Positions 27,932-28,486 of a stretch of DNA of 46,007 bases are shown piece after piece (within the stretch, counting starts at the first letter, position 1; every line of letters begins with the position of its first letter). Made by a program: the position numbers and the translations under genes. The DNA comes from an uncultured Nitrosopumilaceae archaeon. GTDB lineage: Archaea; Thermoproteota; Nitrososphaeria; Nitrososphaerales; Nitrosopumilaceae. The notes beneath the pieces were generated by a model that made no database searches, was not told the DNA's origin, and saw only the letters and a list, made by a program, of their open reading frames with translations. Location of the stretch: contig CALCPD010000069.1 in NCBI GenBank assembly GCA_937897875.1, forward strand, positions 1-46,007. Direction: 5' to 3'.

Positions 27932-27988
27932 GGGTCAGAGGTTATGTGGGGTAATCACGAATCATACAGCCACCGTCTCATCACACCC
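27932..27988 (-). ncRNA. Candidate C/D box guide sRNA
   Basis: On the minus strand: GGGGT, box C GTGATGA (27978-27984), an 8-nt spacer, D'-like CTGT (27966-27969), C'-like GTGATTA (27952-27958), a 13-nt guide CCCCACATAACCT (27939-27951), box D CTGA (27935-27938) and CCC closing the terminal stem. Total 57 nt, the usual archaeal size. The D guide would direct 2'-O-methylation of a target uridine opposite the fifth guide base from box D. It begins 3 nt after the stop of the dephospho-CoA kinase gene, so it could be processed from that mRNA. D' is imperfect and its guide is short. Confidence 0.6.
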
Positions 27989-27991
27989 CAA

Positions 27992-28486
27992 TTACTTCAT
28001 CATATCAAGTAATGTTTGTGCTTTATTTCTAATTTCTGTAGTAATTTGTACTAAAACTAGTCCCTTATTGGGTTGACCATACAAAACAACTGAATTTTCT
28101 GGAGCATGTATACAAACAGGCAATACTAACAAATCTTCTTCACCATTTACAATCAAACGTACAGGAGAAGACATCTCAAATGCTTTTTTAATAATTTGAA
28201 TACTTTGTAAAGTAATTTCAGCTGCAGGATTATCTATTTTTAATTCAGATTCTTTTCCAATTTTAGGATAGTCTCGTTTTTGTCTTTTTTCAAAACCATC
28301 AATTATTTGTAATGACGGAATTATACCAAATTCAATCATCTTCTCAGTTGTTCTATCACCAACTGTAATGATGTAAGAATCATCTAAAAGGTATTTTTGA
28401 ATATTTTCTCGATTATCTTGACCAATTGGCAATAATAATCCTAAAGGAATTTTGAATTGTTCTCTTAGAGAATCAGGTAATTTCAA
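27992..28486 (-). CDS. GTP-dependent dephospho-CoA kinase (DUF359)
   Basis: Last step of archaeal coenzyme A synthesis. The 164-aa protein matches DUF359: PLGLLLPIGQDN near the start, YIITVGDRTTEKM, LQIIDGFEKR, the acidic motif NGEEDLLVLPVCIHAPENS and VVLYGQPNKGLVLVQI. The family was shown in Thermococcus to use GTP. The gene follows the Mrp ATPase gene with 11 bp between them, leftward, and is followed at once by the candidate C/D sRNA. Confidence 0.9.
   Translation of the reverse strand: MKLPDSLREQFKIPLGLLLPIGQDNRENIQKYLLDDSYIITVGDRTTEKMIEFGIIPSLQIIDGFEKRQKRDYPKIGKESELKIDNPAAEITLQSIQIIKKAFEMSSPVRLIVNGEEDLLVLPVCIHAPENSVVLYGQPNKGLVLVQITTEIRNKAQTLLDMMK

Follow-up and report, generated by a model that had tools for sequence, protein, structure and literature searches.

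A putative box C/D guide sRNA with a conserved D' guide behind the dephospho-CoA kinase gene of Nitrosopumilaceae

Layout of the RNA and known archaeal C/D sRNAs

Known archaeal box C/D sRNAs include the sR families of Sulfolobus, Pyrobaculum, and Pyrococcus (sR20, RF01140; sR12, RF01147; snoPyro_CD, RF00095). Mesophilic archaea have few C/D sRNAs according to earlier reports, and searches restricted to the open literature, to which the genome paper of Nitrosopumilus does not belong, yielded no C/D sRNA of Nitrosopumilus or ammonia-oxidizing archaea. The RNA described here lies in the window, that is, the whole stretch of 46,007 nt of Nitrosopumilaceae DNA that was analyzed. It resembles the sR families in its box order, guides of ~12 nt, k-turn plus k-loop, and length of ~60 nt, as well as in its nearness to a gene 3' end and a guide predicted to be directed to rRNA. 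It differs from them in that none matches it at the Rfam cut-off, in a D' box that reads AUGA with a compensating C' box RUGAUUA, and in a guide that is invariant across the lineage, whereas a review emphasizes the accelerated evolution of archaeal C/D guides (PMC7994747).

At its own cut-offs, Rfam returned nothing at the locus, and it holds no family for this RNA. Under permissive settings, the sR20 model aligned with positions 27988-27933 (E=0.0025; 23.7 bits versus a gathering cut-off of 44); this model, an unrelated archaeal C/D model, has an AUGA of its own in the D' place. A previous sequence-only reading of the window had proposed a C/D guide sRNA at the 3' end of the kinase transcript. 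The proposal is strongly supported by the conserved boxes, the covarying stem, and the conserved position, and it is backed also by the sR20 match on the exact span and by a fibrillarin gene in the genome (E=5e-90). Judged by these features, the locus belongs to the known class of box C/D guide RNAs, though it carries no annotation, and very probably encodes such an sRNA with the D' guide as its conserved, rRNA-directed guide.

Just past the kinase stop codon, the minus strand reads TTGGGGT-GTGATGA-GACGGTGGCTGT-ATGA-TTC-GTGATTA-CCCCACATAACCT-CTGA-CCCTATT; its part from 27990 to 27930 has the canonical layout of an archaeal box C/D sRNA. Box C (GTGATGA, 27984-27978; RTGATGA in relatives) and box D (CTGA, 27938-27935) sit near the RNA ends, as this class requires of RUGAUGA and CUGA, and the 5' strand of the terminal stem (TGGGG, 27990-27986) pairs with its 3' strand (CCCTA, 27934-27930). 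Between the two boxes lie the 12-nt D' guide (27977-27966), the D' box ATGA (27965-27962), a k-loop spacer TTC that varies across relatives (27961-27959), the C' box GTGATTA (27958-27952; RTGATTA in relatives), and the 13-nt D guide (27951-27939). Guides of ~10-12 nt are expected, and the D guide measures 11-14 nt in most relatives. Box C, box D, the C'-like GTGATTA, and the complementary ends (GGGG/CCCT), all of which had been pointed out on the minus strand by the sequence-only reading, are present there.

The CTGT at 27969-27966, previously taken as D'-like, was misread. A k-turn requires a GA, which CTGT lacks, and the guide would then measure 8 nt, whereas ATGA restores the normal 12-nt spacing; D' is therefore assigned to ATGA, and the D' guide is consequently the 12-nt GACGGTGGCTGT. 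The guide that CTGT would define, ATGAGACGGTGG, has a match with wobbles at 16S 1348, and this candidate was rejected because it runs into box C, departs from the normal spacing, and lacks the GA of a k-turn. A k-loop is described as comprising two G.A pairs, a U.U, and a Watson-Crick pair between nucleotide 6 of C' and nucleotide 1 of D' (PMC7994747). C' and D' are able to form one here: D' opens with an A that pairs with the U at nucleotide 6 of C', and 37 of 41 distinct rows have this U-A pair of AUGA with RUGAUUA in place of the usual G-C. The D' position reads CTGA in some distant relatives.

Within the window, box C, an NTGA D' box, the start of C', and box D at archaeal spacings, together with a 3-bp stem, occur a single time; among 300 first-order Markov windows, the boxes appeared in 2 and the boxes plus the 3-bp stem in 0. 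Minimum-energy folding of the RNA was no better than that of shuffles (z -0.39) and is uninformative, a result that is not unusual for k-turn RNAs. An alternative GGGGU-ACCCC hairpin from energy folding was rejected, as relatives do not conserve its pairing.

Conservation and gene neighborhood

A BLAST query of 161 bases found matches in 67 of the 72 same-genus genomes, those in G008 and G032 missing the RNA core, and the core also matched six genomes from two other families. Among genomes drawn from the phylum, a covariance model recovered the RNA in 62 of the 63 that belong to Nitrosopumilaceae, as well as in four Nitrosocaldus-type and six Nitrososphaera-type genomes; a Nitrosocosmicus contig has the Nitrososphaera-type D' guide. 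Boxes and spacing are kept in the 50 loci read, with the D half remodelled in three, and both box D and the D' box ATGA are invariant in 45 aligned relatives. When 40 loci of the same genus are compared, identity is 1.0 in both the D' guide and the D' box, versus 0.875 for the upstream coding sequence and 0.81 for the downstream one, and the D guide, which varies between species, has an identity of 0.825. Most positions of the D' guide show no variation among relatives; G099 and G101 have an A as its second base. The terminal stem comprises five pairs, two of them with changes on both sides, and 90.7% of its cells are paired; none of 500 shuffles, a procedure that ignores relatedness, equaled its paired-cell share, two-sided-change count, or covariation score.

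The preservation of this guide without any letter changed through a mostly mesophilic lineage, when archaeal guides usually turn over fast, is the standout feature of the RNA, together with the loss of the partner guide. Such constancy points to one ribosomal methylation that would matter outside heat. In the Nitrososphaera-type relatives L036, L037, and L041, the D'-to-D part is ~8-13 nt longer, and extra CTGACC-like repeats lie past the D box; the D half is thus being remodelled in these relatives.

The gene upstream of the sRNA (27992-28486, minus strand) is a GTP-dependent dephospho-CoA kinase gene (DUF359; Pfam PF04019, E=2e-36), which matches the corresponding NCBIfam model with E=1.2e-32, under that model's cut-off. 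As the sequence-only reading had stated, the RNA starts 3 nt past a stop codon, the TAA of the upstream open reading frame occupying 27994-27992. The sRNA lies 3' of the same kinase gene in every Nitrosopumilaceae, Nitrosocaldus-type, and Nitrososphaera-type locus inspected, and the kinase gene adjoins an Mrp/NBP35-type ATPase gene in the loci read from these three groups. A small gene for an SprT-like protein (27773-27396, minus strand; Pfam match weak and below cut-off) stands beside the sRNA in the window; it is also found behind the sRNA in G207, G407, and G225 and is thus a conserved neighbor.

Ancestral pairing and candidate targets of the D' guide

Searching with a second model brought up relatives from elsewhere in Thermoproteota (G228, G319, G422, G433, G443, G313, and others), many of which combine the D' guide [G/A]CCGATGGCTG with the D guide GGGTRAGCT. 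These double-guide C/D sRNAs aim at the GTPase-associated center of 23S rRNA, and we found no published name for them. Ancestral pairing was scored on the 23S of G228, the single such genome with a 23S available. There, the D' guide GCCGATGGCTGT is matched along 12 positions, with 11 Watson-Crick pairs, at 23S 1233, which corresponds to E. coli C1075, with a score of 11.3 that 0.75% of shuffles equaled, and the outgroup D guide GGGTAAGCTGC forms 10 Watson-Crick pairs at C1100, only 25 nt from C1075. Overall, outgroup D guides pair at 9-10 positions at 23S 1258/1259 of G228 (E. coli C1100/U1101), and shuffled guides equaled the outgroup pairing in 0.5-1.2% of cases for D' guides and 1-4% for D guides. 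Both C1075 and C1100/U1101 belong to the GTPase-associated center and lie 25-26 nt apart; double-guide sRNAs normally target sites within 100 nt (PMC4644070). This pairing identifies 23S C1075 and C1100/U1101 as the predicted ancestral targets of the D' and D guides, respectively.

The outgroup and Nitrosopumilus RNAs constitute one family, since G228, G422, and G468 unite the ancestral D guide with the Nitrosopumilus-type D' guide GGCGGTGGCTGT in one RNA, their CGGTGGCTGT core being identical. They have in common a D' guide family and differ in that the D guide GGGTRAGCT, aimed at C1100/U1101, is gone in Nitrosopumilus, and in that the outgroup genes lie elsewhere in the genome, behind unrelated genes or alone. 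The family thereby offers a legible example of how a double-guide RNA retains one guide and loses the other. Matches to CGGTGGCTGT in Desulfurococcales, Ignisphaera, and several bacteria are without C'/D boxes and look coding or due to chance, and among the R1/R2 matches from other Thermoproteota, some represent generic C/D sRNAs bearing other guides. The loci L263, L277, L308, and L324 (Desulfurococcales and other Thermoproteota metagenome-assembled genome contigs) share ATGATGAAGCGGTGGCTGTCGGATCA, which is read through as DDEAVAVGS and is probably a coding stretch mimicking box C plus guide.

In the window organism, partners of the D' guide were picked by the N-plus-five rule, in which the target is the nucleotide paired with guide position 5. 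At 16S C522, in the 530 loop, guide positions 2-10 form 9 bp (8 Watson-Crick and 1 GU); at 23S C1075, positions 1-9 form 9 bp with 3 wobbles, followed by a mismatch at position 10; and at 16S C1059, in helix 34, positions 1-10 form 10 pairs with 4 wobbles, increasing to 12 pairs in some Nitrosocaldus-type genomes. The 9-bp matches are long enough, since a duplex of 8-10 bp has been reported as optimal for methylation (PMC7089733). The best single-sequence match, C522, was equaled by 38% of shuffled guides, and thus one sequence gives no significant target. The D' guide most likely directs a methyl mark to the decoding or the GTPase center of the ribosome.

The invariant bases of the guide bear on the choice between these sites. 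U7 fits 23S A1077, whereas the 530 loop has a G opposite, with which a C would pair better; G8 and C10, invariant in Nitrosopumilaceae, both fit the 530 loop, whereas the 23S has U and C opposite. At guide positions 6-8, G, U, and G are the only bases able to pair with both the C522 and the C1075 targets, which suggests one guide serving two sites. We put forward, tentatively, that the invariant guide directs methylation both at 16S C522, in the decoding site, and at 23S C1075, a compromise that ammonia-oxidizing archaea may have kept since the takeover from a 23S-only ancestor. A similarly tentative reading is that the guide serves C522 only and that its pairing with C1075 is an ancestral leftover. 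The nine pairs at C522 account for the invariance of G8 and of C10, variation is seen at positions 11-12, where the 16S is unpaired (Nitrosocaldus-type guides even gain a pair), and predicted methylation sites of archaea are known to cluster in helix 18 (PMC4644070); however, U7 would then be unexplained, and the single-sequence match lacks significance. That C1075 alone is served, as in the relatives, is rather unlikely, although outgroup D' guides pair there perfectly or near-perfectly, the D guide site at 25-26 nt is what ordinary double guides have, and U7 stands opposite A1077. The Nitrosopumilus pairing at this site carries the wobbles and the mismatch mentioned above, and C10 is invariant in Nitrosopumilaceae and Nitrosocaldus-type genomes even though its 23S partner is also a C.

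Guidance of 16S C1059 is improbable: the number of pairs is high there, and this target better explains why guide position 2 is A in G099 and G101, a base that fits neither C522 nor C1075, but its four G-U pairs in the window genus stay wobbles and are improved in no same-genus locus read. Far less probable is an element of the 3' untranslated region in which the k-turn binds only L7Ae, stabilizing or regulating the kinase mRNA with no guide role. Its location 3 nt past the stop codon and its conserved position in three families would suit such an element, and L7Ae is reported to bind the k-turns of archaeal RNAs and possibly to regulate translation in this way (PMC5539422). In that case, however, a second box pair at exact spacing and an invariant guide would be needless, and the distant Thermoproteota relatives keep an RNA with two box pairs behind unrelated genes or alone, with guides that pair with 23S rRNA.

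Proposed maturation and the D guide

The sequences show the anatomy of the RNA, its conservation, stem covariation, and position, and the ancestral pairing in outgroups; from these we infer expression, processing, particle assembly, and methylation, as well as the choice between C522 and C1075. The sRNA would form the 3'-terminal tail of the transcript of the dephospho-CoA kinase gene. According to the work of Tripp et al. (2017), as reviewed in PMC7994747, most archaeal C/D sRNAs are without a promoter of their own, many overlap or adjoin gene 3' ends, and internal boxes are enough for their maturation. Co-transcription with the kinase gene is thus the most likely route in light of that summary, and processing of the sRNA from the kinase mRNA is plausible and has precedents. 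L7Ae, Nop5, and fibrillarin would bind the RNA, the C/D k-turn and the C'/D' k-loop holding the two guides, while the exposed ends would be trimmed and ~60 nt protected within the L7Ae-Nop5-fibrillarin particle. The D' guide would be the functional one, with fibrillarin 2'-O-methylating the target base paired with guide position 5. By descent, it would lead fibrillarin to the GTPase-associated center, at 23S C1075 (E. coli numbering); its pairing with 16S C522 is at least as good in the window organism, and one or both bases may carry the 2'-O-methyl.

The 13-nt guide before box D singled out by the sequence-only reading is present, but it is the variable guide and has no convincing 16S, 23S, or tRNA target. 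No signal above shuffled guides was obtained with it against the 16S, the 23S, and 37 tRNA matches of its own genome, either singly or over 17 variants, nor against tRNA matches from a single complete genome of the same genus. Lineages with AGCTACACAANTT-type D guides agree on position 1700 of the window genome's own 23S (best score 11.6, with 0.2% of shuffles as good). This site was rejected as a target: it lies in a variable archaeal insert, the match is eroded in the window genus, and the agreement is with that 23S and not with the lineages' own. The D guide of the window genus has apparently lost the ancestral target at 23S C1100/U1101, and it looks orphan or structural.

Two other Nitrosopumilaceae genomes have in common a second C/D-like sRNA (L390, G156:C3:53345-53409, and L391, G225:C1:342774-342839, both on the minus strand) with a D guide CTGGGGTAT before CTGA; its site ATACCCC is absent from the 16S and occurs once in the 23S of the window genome, at 354. 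Finally, the 23S genes of the Nitrosocaldus-type genomes G107 and G088 (L111 and L114) span ~3,714 bases, versus ~2,960 in G072, which suggests that they carry a large insert or intron.
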